The translations under genes were made by a program, and so were the position numbers. This document shows positions 25,175 through 32,541 of a DNA stretch of 32,541 nt, in pieces. The stretch is from Haloarculaceae archaeon. Its GTDB lineage: Archaea; Halobacteriota; Halobacteria; Halobacteriales; Haloarculaceae. Location: positions 1 to 32,541 of the forward strand of contig SKTU01000034.1 of NCBI GenBank assembly GCA_007122455.1. The letters are read 5' to 3'. Each line of letters starts with the position of its first letter. The stretch's first letter is position 1. The notes beneath the pieces are model-generated. The model ran no database searches. It saw only the letters and a program-made list of their open reading frames with translations, and had not been told where the DNA came from.

Positions 25175-26536
25175 TCAGCCGGCGAGCCATTCGGCGAATG
25201 GCCCGGTGAGGAACTCGTAGTAGCCCATGATCGCCAGCACGAGCGTGGCAATCAGCGCCAACAGCACCGGCACGCGAACCAGCCAGATCCAGATCTGCCC
25301 CAGCGAGCCGATGTCGCCGACGCCCCGCTGGATCTCGTCGAGCGCCCTGTCGTGGGCGATCCAGGCGACGAGAACCATCAGCAGGATGCTGCCCGTCACG
25401 AGGAGGATCTCCGCGGCGAGCTGGTCGTAGAGATCGATCAATACGAGGTCGCCATCGAGAGCCACCGGCGCGCCGAGGACGAACATCCCACCGCCGATGG
25501 CGAGGGTGGCGGGGATTCGGTCGACCCCGAACTCGTCGATGACGGTCGAGACGACGACCTCCATGAGGCTGATCGCGGAGGTGAGCGCCCCCAGTGCGAA
25601 TGCGAAGAAGAAGACTGCACCGAGAACCAGACCGAAGCGGATCTCGGCGAACGCGCCCGCCAGCGCGACGAAGATGGCGCCGGCGCCGGGGTCGGCCGGC
25701 CCAATGGTGGCGGCGAAGAGGATGGGGAAGACGACGAGCCCTGCGAGAAACGCGATGCCGGTGTCGAGGCCGATGATGATCGCGCTGTCCTCGGCGAGGT
25801 TGCGGTCCTCGGCGAGATACGACGCGTAGGTTATCATGATCCCCATCCCGAGCGAGAGGGTGAAGAACGCCTGTCCGGCCGCCGAGGGGATGATCGACTG
25901 CCAGTCGTCGGCGATGACGCCAAAGTCGGGCGAAAGGTAGTAGGCGTAGGCCTCGCCAGCGCCCGGGAGCGTCGCGGCGTAGACGGCGACCGCGACCATC
26001 AGGACGACGAGCGCCGGGACCATGGCCTTCGCCGCCAACTCGATCCCGCGCTGGACGCCAAGCGCGACGATGGCGATGGTGGCAGCCATGAAGATCGCGT
26101 GGAACAGCAGCGCGTCGGTGCCAGCGGCGACGGTGAGGAAGTACGCCTCCGGGTCCTCCGCGTAGCCGCCGGTGAGGCTCCCGACGAAGTACCGAACGAC
26201 CCACCCAGCGACCACGCTGTAGTAGGACATGATGAGGAACGCGATCAGCATGAACAGCCCGCCGATGTACTTCCAGGCGTCACCACCGAACTCGCGGAGG
26301 GCGCCGACCGGACTGAGTTCGGTCCGACGGCCGATGCTGAACTCCACGAGCATGGCCGGTAACCCAATGATCAGGATGAAGAGCAGGTAGATCAGAAGGA
26401 AGGCCGCCCCTCCCTCCTGGCCCACCTGGAAGGGGAACCGCCAGATGTTCCCTAGCCCGACGGCGCTTCCAACCGCGGCTAGGATGAACCCGAATCGGGT
26501 CGCCCAGTTCTCACGTATCACGTCGTCGAGTGACAT
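25175..26536 (-). CDS. Sodium-dependent transporter, NSS (SNF) family
   Basis: This 453-aa LeuT-fold symporter is expected to import an amino acid or similar solute with Na+. The first-helix signature WATRFGFILAAVGSAVGLGNIWRFPFQVGQEGGAAFLL is intact, including the unwound GSAVGLGN Na+/substrate segment. About eleven to twelve spans are visible, as in prokaryotic NSS proteins. The ATG at 26536 is used; an upstream in-frame ATG at 26575 lies at the far side of the TATA box (TTATAAAT, 26563-26570), so it cannot be in the message. Substrate is unknown. It has its own promoter. Confidence 0.94.
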   Translation of the reverse strand: MSLDDVIRENWATRFGFILAAVGSAVGLGNIWRFPFQVGQEGGAAFLLIYLLFILIIGLPAMLVEFSIGRRTELSPVGALREFGGDAWKYIGGLFMLIAFLIMSYYSVVAGWVVRYFVGSLTGGYAEDPEAYFLTVAAGTDALLFHAIFMAATIAIVALGVQRGIELAAKAMVPALVVLMVAVAVYAATLPGAGEAYAYYLSPDFGVIADDWQSIIPSAAGQAFFTLSLGMGIMITYASYLAEDRNLAEDSAIIIGLDTGIAFLAGLVVFPILFAATIGPADPGAGAIFVALAGAFAEIRFGLVLGAVFFFAFALGALTSAISLMEVVVSTVIDEFGVDRIPATLAIGGGMFVLGAPVALDGDLVLIDLYDQLAAEILLVTGSILLMVLVAWIAHDRALDEIQRGVGDIGSLGQIWIWLVRVPVLLALIATLVLAIMGYYEFLTGPFAEWLAG

Positions 26537-26562
26537 ACAGGTAAGAGTATTCCAACCATCAG

Positions 26563-26570
26563 TTATAAAT
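26563..26570 (-). promoter_or_regulatory. TATA box of the NSS transporter gene
   Basis: The minus strand reads ATTTATAA, centred about 30 bases upstream of the ATG at 26536. The rest of the gap to 26776 has GTTAC-GGTT-GTTAC (direct pair near 26580) but no other clear signal. Confidence 0.6.
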
Positions 26571-26776
26571 CCCATCTAGAGGTTACGGTTGTTACAATTT
26601 TGTCCTGAAAAGTGAACGTCAACTCCGGACCACATCGATCGGCGAGGACGGGCGATCGGTGGCCCCTGTCGGTGGTTGTCGATTAGGACGAAGAACGACG
26701 AGATCGCGATCAAACGTACCCGTGAGCGTGAGAAACTGTCACATACCTCGCGAACGTAGCTGTGAACTGAAGAGGA

Positions 26777-27580
26777 ATGCAAACGATCAGTTCAGCCGAT
26801 AACACGCCGATCGCGTTCGAACGATCGGGTAGCGGGCCGCCGCTCGTGCTCGTCCACGGAACGACCGCGGACCACACCCGGTGGGCGCCAGTTCTCCCCA
26901 CACTCGAAGAGCAGTTCACCGTCTACGCGATCGATCGTCGTGGCCGGGGTGAGAGCGGTGACGCCGACGAGTACGAACTGGAACGGGAGTTCGAAGACGT
27001 GGCTGCGGTCGTCGATTCGGTCGACGAACCCGTAATCCTGCTCGGTCACTCCTACGGGGCACTCTGTTCCCTGGAGGCGGCTCTACTGACCGACAACCTC
27101 CGGGCGCTCGTCCTGTACGAGCCGCCGATTCCGGTCGACGATCACGAAGTTTATCAGGAGGACGAGCTCGCAGAGATGAAATCGTTACTCGAAGAGGGTG
27201 ACGACGAGCAGGCGCTCGTCGTTTTCCTGAGCGAGATCGCCGACATTCCGGCGGCACAGATCGAAACGCTTCGATCGGCCCCGAACTGGCAGGCTCGTGT
27301 AGATGCCGCCCACACTGCCTACCGTGAGACGCAGGCACCCGACAGCTACCAGTTCGAGCCCGCCCGATTCGACCGGATGACGACGCCGACGCTACTGTTG
27401 GCGGGAGGGGAGAGTCCACAGTGGTTCAGGGATGCAGTAGAATCAGTCAACGACGCGCTCCCGGACAGCCGGATCGTCGTCCTGGAGGGGCAGGAACACG
27501 TCGCGATAAATACCGCGCCGGAGCTCTTCGTCGACACCGTGTTGACGTTCGTTAGTGAACTGGGCTCGCGAACAGAGTAG
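26777..27580 (+). CDS. Alpha/beta hydrolase
   Basis: This 267-aa soluble alpha/beta hydrolase has the oxyanion-hole strand VLVHGTTADHTRW and the nucleophile elbow GHSYG with Ser92. The catalytic histidine His241 is in LEGQEHVAINT near the C-terminus. The acidic residue is probably in the LLLAGGESP loop. A cap region spans about 115-190. Esterase, lactonase or related activity is likely; the substrate is unknown. The ATG at 26777 begins directly at the first strand, so it is cytoplasmic. It is convergent with the MFS gene, with 97 bases between them and no recognisable feature. Confidence 0.9.
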   Translation: MQTISSADNTPIAFERSGSGPPLVLVHGTTADHTRWAPVLPTLEEQFTVYAIDRRGRGESGDADEYELEREFEDVAAVVDSVDEPVILLGHSYGALCSLEAALLTDNLRALVLYEPPIPVDDHEVYQEDELAEMKSLLEEGDDEQALVVFLSEIADIPAAQIETLRSAPNWQARVDAAHTAYRETQAPDSYQFEPARFDRMTTPTLLLAGGESPQWFRDAVESVNDALPDSRIVVLEGQEHVAINTAPELFVDTVLTFVSELGSRTE

Positions 27581-27677: not shown

Positions 27678-28922
27678 TCAGTCGAGCAGTACCAGAACGC
27701 CGAACAGTAGCGCCAAAACGAGACTCACGCCGGCGATGGCGGGAAAGGCGGCAACGACGCCCCACTCCGTCGCGAGAACGCCGAAGACGGCGGGACCGCT
27801 CGCACTGCCGAGCGCCGACCCGGTCTGGACGACTCCGAACAGACTCCCGCTGTAGGCACTGTCCGCCTCCCGAGAGATCAGCGCGTTCTTCACGGGGTAG
27901 CTCGCGTACATCGCGAATCCGATCGCCGCGAACCAGATCGCCAATCCGGCGATCAGGATACTGGACGGAACACCCGACGCGAGCCGCGTGACGGCGATCG
28001 TCGCCCCGACGAGGATCGCGGTTGCGATAGCGGTCCCGATACCGATGTACCGGCGGTCCACGCGGTCGGCGAGCTCCCCCGCCCAGAGGGACGCCACGCT
28101 CCCACCGGCTAGCAGCGTAAAGAACGCGAGGTTGCTGATCGACACCGACGCACCGGTTTCGGCGGCGATGTACGAGGTGGTGAACGTCTGGATCGCACGG
28201 TGTTGCAGCGACAGAAACAGCGTGATGAGACAGAGCAGTCCGATCTCCCGTGTCATCAGAACGCCCGCCACGTTCCTGATGTTCCGGAGCCGACGCCGAA
28301 CCGTCGAACCGCCGTCGGCTCGGATCGACGGCGTCGTCGAGTTGGCCGAGAGCATGGCGTAGACGACGAAAAGCGTCAGCCCGCCGCCGAGCACTGCAGC
28401 GCCGACGAGCGCCACGCGCCAGCCCGCCACCGCGGCCAATCCGCCCACGACGAGCGGTGCAGCCATGGTGCCGACAGTTCCGCCGAAGCCGAAGACGCCC
28501 ATCGCCTTCCCTTCGGTGGCACCGGATTCGACGTCGCTGATGATCGACATGCCCGTCGGGTGGAACGTACTCCCGCTGATGCCAGTGATGGTCTGGGCGA
28601 CGAGCAGCGCCTCGTAGTTCGGTGCCATGCCCGCCAGCAGGATGCCGCCGGTCATTCCGACGAGACCGACGATCATGAGCCGCGTCTTTCCGACCCAGTC
28701 GGCGACGACGCCGGCGGGGAGCTGGAAGACCGAGTACATGAGAAAGAAGATGGTGAGCAGGAAGCCGGCCTGACCGTACGTGATGCCGAGATCCGTGATC
28801 AACAGCGGGATCACCGGCGGGATGACGATCGAGAAGAACTCGTTGATGCCGTGGCTAGCGGTGATCGGTCCGACGATCCGGGGCTCGTCGACGTCCGTTA
28901 CTCGCTGTATCGGTGCCCGCAT
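27678..28922 (-). CDS. MFS transporter
   Basis: This 414-aa major facilitator has about twelve spans in two halves. The loop 2-3 signature is GVVADWVGKTRLMIVGLVGM, with a matching GELADRVDRRYIGIGTAI in the second half. The cytoplasmic mid-loop (about 200-225) is basic. The ATG is three bases after the stop of the FAD/Fe-S dehydrogenase gene, so the two share a transcript and this protein probably imports or exports that enzyme's substrate or product. It lacks its own TATA box, which supports co-transcription. Confidence 0.92.
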   Translation of the reverse strand: MRAPIQRVTDVDEPRIVGPITASHGINEFFSIVIPPVIPLLITDLGITYGQAGFLLTIFFLMYSVFQLPAGVVADWVGKTRLMIVGLVGMTGGILLAGMAPNYEALLVAQTITGISGSTFHPTGMSIISDVESGATEGKAMGVFGFGGTVGTMAAPLVVGGLAAVAGWRVALVGAAVLGGGLTLFVVYAMLSANSTTPSIRADGGSTVRRRLRNIRNVAGVLMTREIGLLCLITLFLSLQHRAIQTFTTSYIAAETGASVSISNLAFFTLLAGGSVASLWAGELADRVDRRYIGIGTAIATAILVGATIAVTRLASGVPSSILIAGLAIWFAAIGFAMYASYPVKNALISREADSAYSGSLFGVVQTGSALGSASGPAVFGVLATEWGVVAAFPAIAGVSLVLALLFGVLVLLD

Positions 28923-28925
28923 CGA

Positions 28926-31895
28926 TCACGACGATCCGAGCGCCTCGGCCACCTTCTCGATCGGGTGCGGCGGTTTCTCGTCGTACTCGTCGCCGATCTG
29001 CGTCCGGCAGGACGCCCCTGGAGCGACGACCGAATCGCCGCTGTCGTCGTCGATCCGCTCGAAGAGCATCTCGCCGACGGCCTGACTCATCGAGTAGTGT
29101 TCGGCCTCGTACCCGAAACTACCCGCCATGCCGCAACAGCTACTGTTGAGCGGCGTGACTTCGTATCCTGCCCGCCTGAGAACGCCGACGGCGTGGTGAT
29201 CCTTCTTCGTCGCCTTCTGGTGGCAGTGGCCGTGGTAGCTCAGACGCTCGTCGGTACTCCCGAACTCGAGCGATTCGTCGAGGCGGTACCGATCGATGTA
29301 CTCGTTGATGCCGTAGCTGTTCGCCGCGACCGCTTCGACGTCCTCGCCGGAGCAGAGGTCGAGATAATCGTGCTGGAACATGACAGCGTCGGAGGGTTCA
29401 CACACCACGACGTCGCGTCCGTCGCGGATCCGGGGAGCCAGCGCGGCGACGTTCTGTTCGGCCTGCTCGCGCGCCTTTTCGAGGAACCCCTTCGAGAACG
29501 CCGGTCGACCGCTCGCAGTCACACCGTCGGGGAGTTCCACGTGAACATCGGCGGCCTCCAGCACGCGAACCGCCGCCTTCCCGGCGGAAGGGTTGTTGTA
29601 GTTCGTGTAGGTGTCCGGGAAGAACAGCACCTGCCGCGACGCCTCGGACGGATCGATCGTCGAGCCGCCGCGAGCCTCGAACCAGTCGACGAACGTCTCC
29701 CGGTGGAACGTCGGGAGCGATCGCTCGCGGGCGATCCCGACCGTCTTCTCCATCAGGAACCGCGATCCCGGAAGCTTCGTAGCGAGATTCGAGAGCGGCG
29801 CGGTTGCGCTACCGATCTTCGAGAGGGTGTCGATGTTCGCGAACATCCGGTCGCGGATCGACGCGCCGTTCCGCTCGTGGTAGGCGTGTTCGAGCTCCGC
29901 CTTCATCTTCGCCATGTCGACTTCACTCGGGCAGTCGGTGGCACATCCCTTACAGCCGACACAGAGGTCGAGCACCTCCGTGACGAACTCCTCTTCGAAC
30001 ATCTCCTCCTCCGGGAGCCCCCCGCTCATCGCCTGTCTGAGCATGTTCGCCCGCCCCCGTGTGCTCTGGATCTCCTCGTGAGACGCCCGGTAGGTCGGGC
30101 ACATCACCCCACCGGTGCCGTCCTGGCTCGTCCGGCAACCGCCGCAGCCGTGACAGAGCTCGACCATGCCCTGGAAGCCGTTCTCGTTCTCCCAGTTCAG
30201 TTCGGCGTCGAAACCGGAGTCGAACTCGTACTCCGGACCGAACCGGAGGTTTTCGCTCATGTCGAAATCACCGCAGACCGATCCCGGATTCAGCAGCCAG
30301 TCCGGATCGAACGCCGACTTCAGATCCCGAAACACTTCCCAGAGACGGTCGCCGTAGAGTTTGCGGTTCCACTGGGTTCGCGCCCGACCGTCGCCGTGTT
30401 CGCCGGAGACGCTCCCGCCGTACTTCACGGCGAGGTCGGAGGCCGCGTCGCCGAGCGACACCATCGTGTCGACCCCCTCCTGAGTCTTGACGTTGATGAG
30501 GGGTCGGACGTGCATACAGCCGGGGCCCGCGTGGGCGTAGAAGCTGGCGAACGTGTCGTGGTCCTCGAACACCTGCTGGAACTCGGCGGTGTACTCCGGG
30601 AGATGTTCGACCGGGATGGCGACGTCCTCGACGAACGCGATGTGCTTCTCGTCGCCGGTCCGGGAGAGCAGGATCGGCGTCGAGGCCTTCCGCATCTTCC
30701 AGAACGCCTGTTGTTGATCGGCGTCGTACGCTTCGAGCCCGTCGAATGCGATCTCGCCGACGCGGTCCTCGAGCAGCGCCTCGACGAGTTCGCGGCGCTC
30801 GGCGTCGGTGTCGGCGTAGAACTCGACGAGCAGGAACGTGTCCGTCTCCTCGGGGAGGATACCGACGACGTCCTTGAACTCCTCGAGCCCGCGAGCCAGA
30901 TCGAGCAACACCCCATCGAGCACCTCGACGGCGGCGGGATCGTGTTCGAGGATCGGCTCGACGTCCTCCATGGCGTCCAGCAGGCTGTGGTAGGTGAGCA
31001 ATGCGACCGACTTCGTCTCCGGGATATCCACCAGCGAGACCTCGGCTTCCGTCACCAATGCGAGCGTCCCCTCGCTCCCGACGAGCAGTTTGGCGAGGTT
31101 GACCGTGCCGGTCTCGGCCTCGTCGATAAGCACGTCCAGATTGTACCCCGACACGTTCCGCTTCATGTCGGGATACCGCTCGTCGATCTCGTCGGCCTCC
31201 TCGTCGATGATCCGAACGACTTCGGCGTAGATGCGCGCCTCGAGACCGCCGTCGACGTCCGCGCGCTCGCGAAGCGTCTCGACGTCGATCTCGCCGAACG
31301 TCGTCACCGACCCGTCCGCGAGAACGGCTTCGACCTCCTCGACGTACGCGTCCGTCTTGCCGTAGAGGAGCGAGTGTGCACCGGTGGTGTTGTTACCGAT
31401 CGCTCCGCCGAGTGCACTCCGATCGGCCGTCGACGGATCGGGTGCGAACTTCAGCCCGTGCGGCTCGAGGGACCGGTTCAGTTCGCCCAGCGTCACACCC
31501 GTTTGCGCCCGTGCACGTCGGTCGTCGGGGTCGATTGAGCGCACCTCGTTCATGTACCGGGTGAAGTCGAGCACGACCGCCTCGTTGACCGCCTGCCCCG
31601 CGAGGCTCGTCCCCCCGCCACGGGGGAGTACCGGGATCTCCCGCTCCGCACAGTAGGAGACGACCGCGGCCACGTCCGCCGTTGAGGTGGGGTAGACGAC
31701 GCCGATCGGCGTCACCTCGTATGCGCTCGCGTCCGTCGCGTACAGCTCCTTCGAGTACTCGTCGAATCGAACGTCGCCGTCGACACGCTCGGTCAGATCG
31801 TCGACCAGCCCGGGACGATCGACCGCGTCGTTCCGGTAGTCGTACTCGGCACGTCCGTCCGCAGTCGGATCCGAAGATGGATTATCAGTAGCCAT
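28926..31895 (-). CDS. Fused FAD-binding / iron-sulfur dehydrogenase (D-2-hydroxyacid type)
   Basis: This 989-aa fusion joins a GlcD/Dld-type FAD domain with a GlpC/LutA-like Fe-S domain. The N-terminal PCMH-type FAD site is visible (VLPRGGGTSLAGQAV, then ADRSALGGAIGNNTTGAHSL and KLLVGSEGTLALVTEAEV), followed by a substrate domain with SVSGEHGDGRARTQW. Two ferredoxin-like clusters follow, CHGCGGC...CPTYR (about 578-600) and CVGCKGCATDCP (about 641-655). The C-terminal CCG domain keeps HGHCHQKAT and SSCCGMAGSFGY, but the first CCGRP motif is degenerate (TASGRPAFSKGF). Members oxidise D-lactate, glycolate or 2-hydroxyglutarate and pass electrons to the quinone pool. It lies in line between the TPP-enzyme and MFS genes. 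Confidence 0.92.
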   Translation of the reverse strand: MATDNPSSDPTADGRAEYDYRNDAVDRPGLVDDLTERVDGDVRFDEYSKELYATDASAYEVTPIGVVYPTSTADVAAVVSYCAEREIPVLPRGGGTSLAGQAVNEAVVLDFTRYMNEVRSIDPDDRRARAQTGVTLGELNRSLEPHGLKFAPDPSTADRSALGGAIGNNTTGAHSLLYGKTDAYVEEVEAVLADGSVTTFGEIDVETLRERADVDGGLEARIYAEVVRIIDEEADEIDERYPDMKRNVSGYNLDVLIDEAETGTVNLAKLLVGSEGTLALVTEAEVSLVDIPETKSVALLTYHSLLDAMEDVEPILEHDPAAVEVLDGVLLDLARGLEEFKDVVGILPEETDTFLLVEFYADTDAERRELVEALLEDRVGEIAFDGLEAYDADQQQAFWKMRKASTPILLSRTGDEKHIAFVEDVAIPVEHLPEYTAEFQQVFEDHDTFASFYAHAGPGCMHVRPLINVKTQEGVDTMVSLGDAASDLAVKYGGSVSGEHGDGRARTQWNRKLYGDRLWEVFRDLKSAFDPDWLLNPGSVCGDFDMSENLRFGPEYEFDSGFDAELNWENENGFQGMVELCHGCGGCRTSQDGTGGVMCPTYRASHEEIQSTRGRANMLRQAMSGGLPEEEMFEEEFVTEVLDLCVGCKGCATDCPSEVDMAKMKAELEHAYHERNGASIRDRMFANIDTLSKIGSATAPLSNLATKLPGSRFLMEKTVGIARERSLPTFHRETFVDWFEARGGSTIDPSEASRQVLFFPDTYTNYNNPSAGKAAVRVLEAADVHVELPDGVTASGRPAFSKGFLEKAREQAEQNVAALAPRIRDGRDVVVCEPSDAVMFQHDYLDLCSGEDVEAVAANSYGINEYIDRYRLDESLEFGSTDERLSYHGHCHQKATKKDHHAVGVLRRAGYEVTPLNSSCCGMAGSFGYEAEHYSMSQAVGEMLFERIDDDSGDSVVAPGASCRTQIGDEYDEKPPHPIEKVAEALGSS

Positions 31896-31927
31896 GAGTT
31901 CCGTTTTGTGTCCAGTTCACACAGACA

Positions 31928-31936
31928 ACAGATAAA
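31928..31936 (-). promoter_or_regulatory. Possible internal promoter before the FAD/Fe-S dehydrogenase
   Basis: The minus strand reads ACTTTATCT about 37 bases upstream of the ATG at 31895. A dyad TGTGT-N7-ACACA (31907-31923) lies between. It would allow transcription independent of the upstream TPP gene. Confidence 0.35.
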
Positions 31937-31965
31937 GTCACCCTACGCCGAATCGCCGGGAGGGG

Positions 31966-32541
31966 TTACTCCTCAAGGTCGGGACGCGAGAGCTCAGTCT
32001 CTTTCGACGTGATGATCTCCAGCAGCGCCGCCGTACCCTGTTCGGTCTGTTCGATCCCGCGCTCGATCGCCGGGGCGACCTCGTCGGGGTCCTCGACGCG
32101 CTCGCCGTAGCCGCCGAGCCCCTCGGCAACCGTCGCGAAGTCGCCGGAGAACGGCGTCTCGTAGGACGCCATCTCGTAGTTGTTGAGGTGGATCGAGAGG
32201 ATCGGGAGGTCCTCGCGCACCGCGGTTTCGAAGTCGAGACCGGTCATGCCGATGGCGCCGTCGCCCCAGAGGTTGATGCAGAGCTTCTCCGGGTGAAGCA
32301 GCTTGGCACCCATGATGAGGCCGAGCCCGTAGCCGAGCTGGGTCGTCTTCCCCCAACCGATGTACGAGAGCGGCTCCGTCGACTCCCAGAACGGGGCGAG
32401 GAAGTCGCGAGGGTTGCCCGCGTCGTGCGTGATGATCGTCTCCTCGGGGTCGGTGACGCGAGTGAGCTCGTGGATGACCCGGTAGGGATTGATCGGCGTC
32501 TCGTCGGACGTGAGCTTCGGTCGCCACTGGTCGAGCCACTC
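31966..32541 (-). CDS. Thiamine pyrophosphate-dependent enzyme, C-terminal part (5' partial)
   Basis: This is the C-terminal 191 residues of an acetolactate-synthase-like TPP enzyme; the frame is open to the right window edge. The TPP/Mg2+ motif GDGAIGMTGLDFETA...LHLNN-type (GDGAIG then LSIHLNNYEM) is intact. It is preceded by THDAGNPRDFLAPFW and GWGKTTQLGYGLGLIMGAKLL. Candidate reactions are acetolactate synthase, glyoxylate carboligase, oxalyl-CoA or phenylpyruvate-type decarboxylation. It lies 70 bases upstream of the FAD/Fe-S dehydrogenase on the same strand, so a joint pathway is likely. The reaction cannot be fixed without the missing N-terminal two domains. Confidence 0.88.
   Translation of the reverse strand, partial: EWLDQWRPKLTSDETPINPYRVIHELTRVTDPEETIITHDAGNPRDFLAPFWESTEPLSYIGWGKTTQLGYGLGLIMGAKLLHPEKLCINLWGDGAIGMTGLDFETAVREDLPILSIHLNNYEMASYETPFSGDFATVAEGLGGYGERVEDPDEVAPAIERGIEQTEQGTAALLEIITSKETELSRPDLEE

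Follow-up and report, generated by a model that had tools for sequence, protein, structure and literature searches.

Glycolate use has been described in several bacteria. In Cupriavidus, a glycolate dehydrogenase yields glyoxylate, which is then described as entering either the glycerate pathway (gcl, hyi, tsr and glycerate kinase) or the malate cycle (malate synthase and malic enzyme) (PMC7486775). A Pseudomonas gene cluster is reported to hold pyruvate kinase, class II glycerate kinase, tartronate semialdehyde reductase, hydroxypyruvate isomerase and gcl together (PMC2063504); haloarchaeal glycerate kinases are discussed there in the context of the Entner-Doudoroff pathway. Glyoxylate carboligase (Gcl) is presented as exceptional among thiamine diphosphate (ThDP)-dependent enzymes in working without the catalytic glutamate, and a valine at that position is given as the hallmark of the entire Gcl family (PMC3534367). 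Here, we analysed a window of 32541 bases, which makes up the entire contig C38 in a haloarchaeal draft genome (G000; 2.93 Mb, 149 contigs, 87% complete), and in it three adjacent genes for a ThDP-dependent enzyme, a 2-hydroxyacid dehydrogenase and a major facilitator superfamily (MFS) carrier. We propose, with a probability of roughly 0.63, that these genes represent, in truncated form, a haloarchaeal glyoxylate island, which is often plasmid-borne, would be fed by glycolate or purines, and would employ a non-orthologous ThDP enzyme in the role of Gcl. To our knowledge, a glycerate pathway from glycolate- or purine-derived glyoxylate is not known in haloarchaea. The initial annotation had likewise not regarded such a glycolate route as established in haloarchaea, and the literature searched, in which few subscription papers were covered, gave no title or abstract opening that describes, for haloarchaea, either a glyoxylate carboligase or a route from glycolate to glycerate.

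The three genes lie on the minus strand in the same orientation, with gaps of 70 and 3 bases, and their coordinates confirm the arrangement first proposed for them. The ThDP gene (31966–32541) runs off the contig and has lost its 5′ part; because the window is the entire contig, this truncation stems from the assembly. The remaining C-terminal 191 residues match the NF004807/PRK06154 family with 318 bits over model positions 365–564, while the next best model reaches 88 bits, and carry a Pfam TPP_enzyme_C domain at residues 40–172 (82.5 bits). The fragment falls below the NF004807 cut-off of 607 bits because it is truncated. Full-length haloarchaeal relatives score 772–893 bits, and one relative (L059) is 88% identical to the window protein across the fragment.

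In the genome collection, at least 546 candidate stretches from haloarchaea and several bacterial phyla contain a relative of the ThDP enzyme at E ≤ 1e-3, the best 80 of which were kept for analysis. NF004807 is found over its cut-off in 32 of 292 haloarchaeal genomes, a patchy distribution, and canonical Gcl (NF008431) in none of these 292 genomes and in one of 14 control genomes. Haloferax volcanii is a control genome with no NF004807 match over the cut-off. Furthermore, 38 plasmid records match the ThDP enzyme at E ≤ 1e-80, ten of them haloarchaeal.

The NF004807 proteins are set apart from the named ThDP enzymes by score and by phylogeny. Specifically, a full-length relative (L050) scores 891 bits with NF004807, 286 bits with the acetolactate synthase model TIGR00118 (cut-off 538) and 219 bits with the Gcl model NF008431 (cut-off 791). 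A tree was built from 62 proteins after ten near-duplicate rows had been removed from 72, with the window fragment and one further protein (L078) left out. In this tree, 47 NF004807 members form one clade with a support of 100/100, outside which fall E. coli Gcl, IlvB, Oxc and PoxB, eight ThDP paralogues from the window's genome and three other proteins. IlvB and its relatives are the group that contains E. coli Gcl (99/95). The initial annotation had called for the enzyme to be placed among Gcl, IlvB, Oxc and BFD; the separation from IlvB stands, and a grouping with Gcl does not. A housekeeping acetolactate synthase is ruled out by the tree, by the TIGR00118 score of the relative and by the neighbours, which are the dehydrogenase and the MFS carrier, with no ilvN or ilvC beside the gene.

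The catalytic glutamate distinguishes the two families as well. Residue 51 falls in the part of the gene that is absent from the window and was judged from relatives. It is glutamate in 45 of the 47 NF004807 proteins and glutamine in the other two, and it is valine in E. coli Gcl. Because the catalytic glutamate that Gcl lacks is kept, the NF004807 enzyme is not a member of the Gcl family. The two glutamine-bearing proteins come from Rhizobium and Paracoccus (L088:8944-10635 and L089:8932-10617), where they are encoded between PuuE and an allantoinase-like gene; they are possibly intermediate between the glutamate-bearing enzymes and the valine-bearing Gcl.

The structure of the ThDP enzyme is predicted with a pLDDT of 89 and a pTM of 0.90. 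Among the first 50 Foldseek matches listed, HACL, Oxc, CDH, Gcl and ALS all appear at TMq 0.80–0.88 and 21–26% identity, and this fold comparison cannot decide between the functions of HACL, Oxc, Gcl and ALS. A sequence search of the PDB gave no close solved relative; the best match is BbmA, with 173 bits.

The dehydrogenase gene (28926–31895, minus strand) encodes a 989-residue protein that contains, in one chain, FAD_binding_4 (residues 63–200, 31296–31709; Pfam 146 bits), FAD-oxidase_C (residues 291–540, 30276–31025; 196 bits), a 4Fe-4S domain (Fer4_8, residues 578–659, 29919–30164; 36.9 bits) and a CCG cysteine-rich domain (residues 887–967, 28995–29237; 33.1 bits). It scores 553.8 bits with YdiJ (cut-off 1350), 264.7 with GlpC (cut-off 278) and 249.6 with GlcD (cut-off 567.9), all under the equivalog cut-offs. 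These model scores and the four domains bear out its description as a fused GlcD- and GlpC-type flavin adenine dinucleotide (FAD)/iron-sulfur 2-hydroxyacid dehydrogenase.

Close relatives of the dehydrogenase accompany the ThDP gene. Relatives at E ≤ 1e-180 occur in 289 of 292 haloarchaeal genomes, and the 21 top-scoring non-self rows, from 18 genomes and at 71–79% identity, all belong to the 32 ThDP-positive genomes. The first ThDP-negative genome then follows at 70% identity, and lower-scoring negative genomes reach 71%. The hypergeometric probability of this co-occurrence, with relatedness ignored, is 1e-20. Two ThDP-positive genomes (G195 and G226) lie outside the matches listed, yet have a dehydrogenase of 75% identity near their ThDP gene. 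On plasmids, ranks 1–9 of the 93 records that match the dehydrogenase are nine of the ten haloarchaeal plasmids with a ThDP gene. The dehydrogenase is present at ≥71% identity in 15 of 35 haloarchaeal ThDP loci (14 under a length rule).

These 35 loci, from 32 genomes and in stretches of 7.5–19.5 kb, share a recurrent set of neighbours: ddh (23 loci), a tartrate-dehydrogenase-like gene (16), class III CoA-transferase (16), enoyl-CoA hydratase (14), malic enzyme (13), glycerate kinase (6), TctA (5), the malate synthase gene aceB (4) and M20 hydrolase (3). With two copies per genome assumed, the chance of six kinases is 1.5e-6 and that of four aceB genes is 4.5e-4; with the loci collapsed to about 17 lineages, an assumed number, P is 6.6e-4 for aceB. 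The plasmids of Halorussus aquaticus and H. limi carry, in order, a MOFRL glycerate kinase, aceB, the dehydrogenase, ddh and the ThDP gene; in H. aquaticus, the kinase, ddh and dehydrogenase were typed by models and aceB is taken from the record annotation. The ddh of the islands scores 506 bits (cut-off 400) and belongs to the family of Haloferax mediterranei Ddh. Beside a Halorussus island (L188:10175-17605) there are also a methylisocitrate-lyase/PEP-mutase family gene (prpB 337, cut-off 354) and a phosphonoacetate-hydrolase-like gene (216, cut-off 408), perhaps of a phosphonate route.

Other haloarchaeal loci carry genes of purine breakdown. In Halocatena salina, a xanthine permease (421.7 bits, cut-off 414), an allantoate amidohydrolase (410, cut-off 399) and aceB (813, cut-off 780) are near the ThDP gene, together with a hydantoinase/allantoinase-like gene under its cut-off, malic enzyme, ddh and a tartrate-dehydrogenase-like gene. 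One stretch (L070, genome G209) holds glycerate kinase, the ThDP gene, ddh, a tartrate-dehydrogenase-like gene, pyruvate kinase (over its cut-off), a tartronate-semialdehyde-reductase-like gene (TIGR01505, 335 bits against a cut-off of 340.75; next model of unrelated function, 246) and allantoate amidohydrolase (402, cut-off 399). Another (L079, genome G183) holds a xanthine permease at its cut-off, malic enzyme, a tartrate-dehydrogenase-like gene, ddh, the ThDP gene, an IclR regulator, a reductase-like gene (TIGR01505, 322 bits), aceB (796, cut-off 780) 15 bases from the latter, and an allantoinase-like gene. The reductase-like gene occurs in three of 59 haloarchaeal stretches (L070, L079 and L105); its products are 41–44% identical to E. 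coli GlxR and score 322–335 bits with TIGR01505 and at most 246 bits with models of other function. In five stretches from one genus (L073, L075 and L080–L082), an aconitase-family gene (two in L073) stands within a few kilobases after the ThDP gene, along with further conserved neighbours that have no assigned role.

In bacteria, several ThDP genes also lie near genes of 2-hydroxyacid oxidation or purine breakdown. An alpha-hydroxyacid oxidase is found near the ThDP gene in Neorhizobium, there with GlcD-like genes, and in Salipiger and Bradyrhizobium, and a 2-hydroxyacid dehydrogenase in three Caldilineaceae (one typed, under its cut-off). A Rokubacteria contig has an allantoate amidohydrolase over its cut-off near the ThDP gene, and Rhizobium and Paracoccus have PuuE and allantoinase-like genes beside it. 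In seven Poribacteria stretches (L115, L117, L122, L146, L152, L155 and L160), the clusters of which were typed through one or two members, two tandem PhyH-like genes and a GFO_IDH oxidoreductase precede the ThDP gene and LamG-domain genes follow it.

The window's own genome contains 13 matches to the ThDP N-domain, further pieces of the NF004807 family and candidate pathway genes. The NF004807 pieces on C38, C102 (L049), C75 (L201) and C113 (L200) are each truncated by a contig end, as though assembly had failed at this family. On C102, about 460 N-terminal residues are encoded, and its end overlaps the window gene over 272 bases; because the overlap is only 74% identical, C102 is a different copy and was rejected as the missing half of the window's gene. 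C75 ends in another 5′ end of an NF004807 gene. For an IclR regulator near that piece (L201:5324-6157), the beta-hydroxyaspartate-cycle regulator BhcR is the best model (167.7 bits, cut-off 350); the E. coli glyoxylate-bypass IclR model is matched as well (131 bits). The 5′ end at the start of C113 belongs, judged by eye, to the window's own subclade, and its GC content is 0.657 against 0.649 for the last 5 kb of the window; it is probably, not provably, the missing start of the window's ThDP gene, in which case about 1 kb would be missing between the two pieces. Five genes were typed in the first 9 kb of C113, namely a phosphomevalonate decarboxylase (over its cut-off), a glutamate dehydrogenase and a CitE-like lyase (both under), an enoyl-CoA-hydratase-like gene and one gene without a match, and there is no reductase or kinase of the glyoxylate-to-C3 pathway among the five. 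Other contigs of the genome carry two glycerate kinases, a malate synthase over its cut-off and a gene 73% identical to the islands' tartronate-semialdehyde-reductase-like gene. The initial annotation had suggested looking for a tartronate-semialdehyde reductase or glycerate kinase gene to the right of the contig. The window itself has no glycerate kinase; among relatives, the kinase is present in six of the 35 loci and on both Halorussus plasmids, and the reductase-like gene, just under its model's cut-off, in three stretches.

The MFS carrier (27678–28922, minus strand; 414 residues, Pfam MFS_1 146 bits) is lineage-specific. Relatives at E ≤ 1e-60 occur in two of 57 genomes of the family, the window's genome included, no plasmid match is found at 1e-50, and the family searches gave no clue to the substrate. 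Its proposed role in taking up a 2-hydroxyacid, glycolate among them, is not supported; only the 3-base gap speaks for it, and the carrier is uninformative on substrate. Next to the three genes are a sodium:neurotransmitter-symporter family gene (25175–26575, minus strand) and an alpha/beta hydrolase gene (26777–27580, plus strand).

From the observed gene content, clades, co-occurrence and neighbourhoods we infer every substrate, product and flux of the scheme, and any participation of the window's MFS carrier. The FAD/iron-sulfur dehydrogenase would oxidize a D-2-hydroxyacid and pass the electrons to the respiratory chain; its most likely substrate is glycolate, which would give glyoxylate. 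The NF004807 enzyme would then consume this glyoxylate. Its most likely reaction is that of bacterial Gcl, in which one molecule is decarboxylated and the remaining one-carbon unit is joined to a second molecule, yielding tartronate semialdehyde. Where present, the TIGR01505-like reductase could convert tartronate semialdehyde to glycerate, which the MOFRL glycerate kinase would phosphorylate, while malate synthase and malic enzyme could provide a parallel route. Other islands would obtain their glyoxylate from purines, via allantoate, and not through the dehydrogenase. There seem to be two island types, one with the dehydrogenase, as in the window, and one with purine-breakdown genes, and both would yield glyoxylate. 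Because the pooled islands supply a counterpart for each step except a clear hyi and both types would yield glyoxylate, we read the NF004807 enzyme as a convergent substitute for Gcl. Carboligation of glyoxylate to a C3 compound, the route first suggested for this locus, is consistent with the glycerate kinase, malate synthase, malic enzyme and 2-hydroxyacid reductase genes near the relatives' ThDP genes and, in three stretches, with a tartronate-semialdehyde-reductase-like gene; membership in the Gcl family, by contrast, is contradicted by the tree, the cut-off and residue 51.

Several observations weigh against the glyoxylate scheme. Gcl proper is ruled out on the three grounds just named. 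A dehydrogenase of the linked group was not found in 11 of the 32 ThDP-positive genomes, and the link is therefore one-way: the dehydrogenase implies the ThDP gene and not the reverse. Most of the glycerate kinase linkage seen across the 35 loci is due to a single genus (P 0.013 at two of about 17 lineages). The reductase-like gene is found in none of 70 bacterial stretches, and its three haloarchaeal occurrences among 59 are all just below the TIGR01505 cut-off. A search with E. coli Hyi gave three weak matches in the 70 bacterial stretches and one partial match in the 59 haloarchaeal ones (L098). The latter (L098:2-439; 35% over 110 residues) is found at the margin of the stretch from Natrialba asiatica, some 9.5 kb away from the ThDP gene. 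The class III CoA-transferase and the tartrate-dehydrogenase-like gene, each in 16 of 35 loci, are not needed by the scheme. The studied Haloferax mediterranei Ddh is described as favouring 2-oxoacids of four to five carbons (PMC6303947). In addition, the PhyH, LamG and GFO_IDH genes of Poribacteria, the nitrilase and subtilase of some Chloroflexi and the threonine-dehydratase-like gene of Latescibacterota, all near the ThDP gene and with each cluster typed through one or two members, do not point to glyoxylate.

Alternatively, the ThDP enzyme could act, as a decarboxylase or acyloin synthase, on a different 2-oxoacid; examples are oxaloglycolate derived from tartrate and the pyruvate or oxaloacetate formed from D-lactate or D-malate. 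The dehydrogenase would then oxidize the corresponding hydroxyacid. The tartrate/D-malate-dehydrogenase-like gene in 16 of 35 haloarchaeal loci suggests this, as does a tartrate-dehydrogenase-like gene (445 bits, cut-off 470) adjoining the ThDP gene in a Thermomicrobiales contig; aldehyde dehydrogenase genes are near two bacterial members, and the best model of the dehydrogenase is that of the D-2-hydroxyglutarate enzyme YdiJ. Decarboxylation of oxaloglycolate would presumably give tartronate semialdehyde as well, and glycerate kinase is reported to serve tartrate routes too (PMC2063504). We nevertheless consider a different 2-oxoacid unlikely: glyoxylate accounts best for malate synthase, allantoate amidohydrolase and xanthine permease as neighbours, and the Halorussus and Haladaptatus stretches have no tartrate-dehydrogenase-like match. 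The CoA-transferase, which stands 56–298 bases from the ThDP gene in 14 of its 16 loci, raises a further possibility, namely a CoA-thioester enzyme such as oxalyl-CoA decarboxylase (Oxc) or 2-hydroxyacyl-CoA lyase (HACL), partnered by a class III CoA-transferase as in oxc-frc. Foldseek leads with HACS/HACL and Oxc and places E. coli Gcl at ranks 28, 39 and 49, and an oxalyl-CoA route for glyoxylate is described in Cupriavidus (PMC7486775). The TM-scores to HACL, Oxc and Gcl are, however, alike (TMq 0.83–0.88), and neither the window nor the stretches from Halorussus and Haladaptatus gave a CoA-transferase match. Oxc proper is ruled out, since the GDYEE motif is absent from the six members inspected for it, the C-terminal tail of E. 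coli Oxc is absent from the three inspected, and Oxc lies outside the clade; we take this motif and tail to bind the substrate. A CoA-thioester activity thus appears improbable.

That the three genes are neighbours by accident, the ThDP gene being a housekeeping acetolactate synthase or a stray, is hardly credible. The MFS carrier is lineage-specific, and ThDP enzymes of such a fold are numerous, as the N-domain matches in the window's genome illustrate; but the NF004807 clade is separate from IlvB and from eight paralogues of its own genome, and the linkage of ThDP enzyme and dehydrogenase recurs in genomes and on plasmids. For this pair, an accidental origin is largely refuted; the MFS carrier may be a chance neighbour. 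Beyond the window, we give about even odds to the broader proposal that NF004807 represents a second, independently arisen glyoxylate carboligase family with a normal catalytic glutamate, present in haloarchaea, Chloroflexota, Pseudomonadota, Poribacteria and others, and in haloarchaea the core of an often plasmid-borne island that would convert glycolate- or purine-derived glyoxylate to glycerate and malate.

If true, the glyoxylate scheme would give a function to a large unnamed enzyme family and would explain how growth on glycolate or purine-derived glyoxylate could be possible for haloarchaea that lack canonical Gcl. It would also provide a first metabolic setting for the haloarchaeal Ddh family, the physiological role of which is called unknown in the study of the Haloferax enzyme (PMC6303947). 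Moreover, a second family catalysing the same reaction with the glutamate in place would offer a natural comparison for understanding the loss of this residue in Gcl. Glycolate is described as being released by algae (PMC7416419), and the route could therefore link brine algae to haloarchaea.

The locus can be set beside five described systems. The window fragment and its full-length relatives belong, by score and tree, to the NF004807/PRK06154 "thiamine pyrophosphate-requiring protein" family, the name of which carries no function and of which the window copy is incomplete. With the Gcl family (NF008431), the enzyme shares the ThDP fold, neighbours that make or use glyoxylate and, near some members, allantoin-type genes; it differs in its score (219 bits for the relative against the cut-off of 791), in glutamate, or in two of the 47 proteins glutamine, rather than valine at residue 51, and in forming its own clade. 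The dehydrogenase resembles YdiJ, its best NCBIfam model, in uniting the FAD domains, 4Fe-4S domain and CCG domain in one chain, and differs in reaching 554 bits against a cut-off of 1350. The islands' ddh is of the same family as Haloferax mediterranei Ddh, and in the islands it adjoins the ThDP gene. Compared with glycolate use in Cupriavidus and E. coli (GlcDEF, the Gcl glycerate pathway and the malate cycle), no single haloarchaeal stretch was seen with every step and Hyi is hardly seen, while the pooled islands hold a counterpart of each step except a clear hyi. They do so in archaeal hosts, with a ThDP enzyme that is non-orthologous to Gcl, with the dehydrogenase as one fused chain, and with ddh, a 2HADH gene, as the commonest haloarchaeal neighbour.

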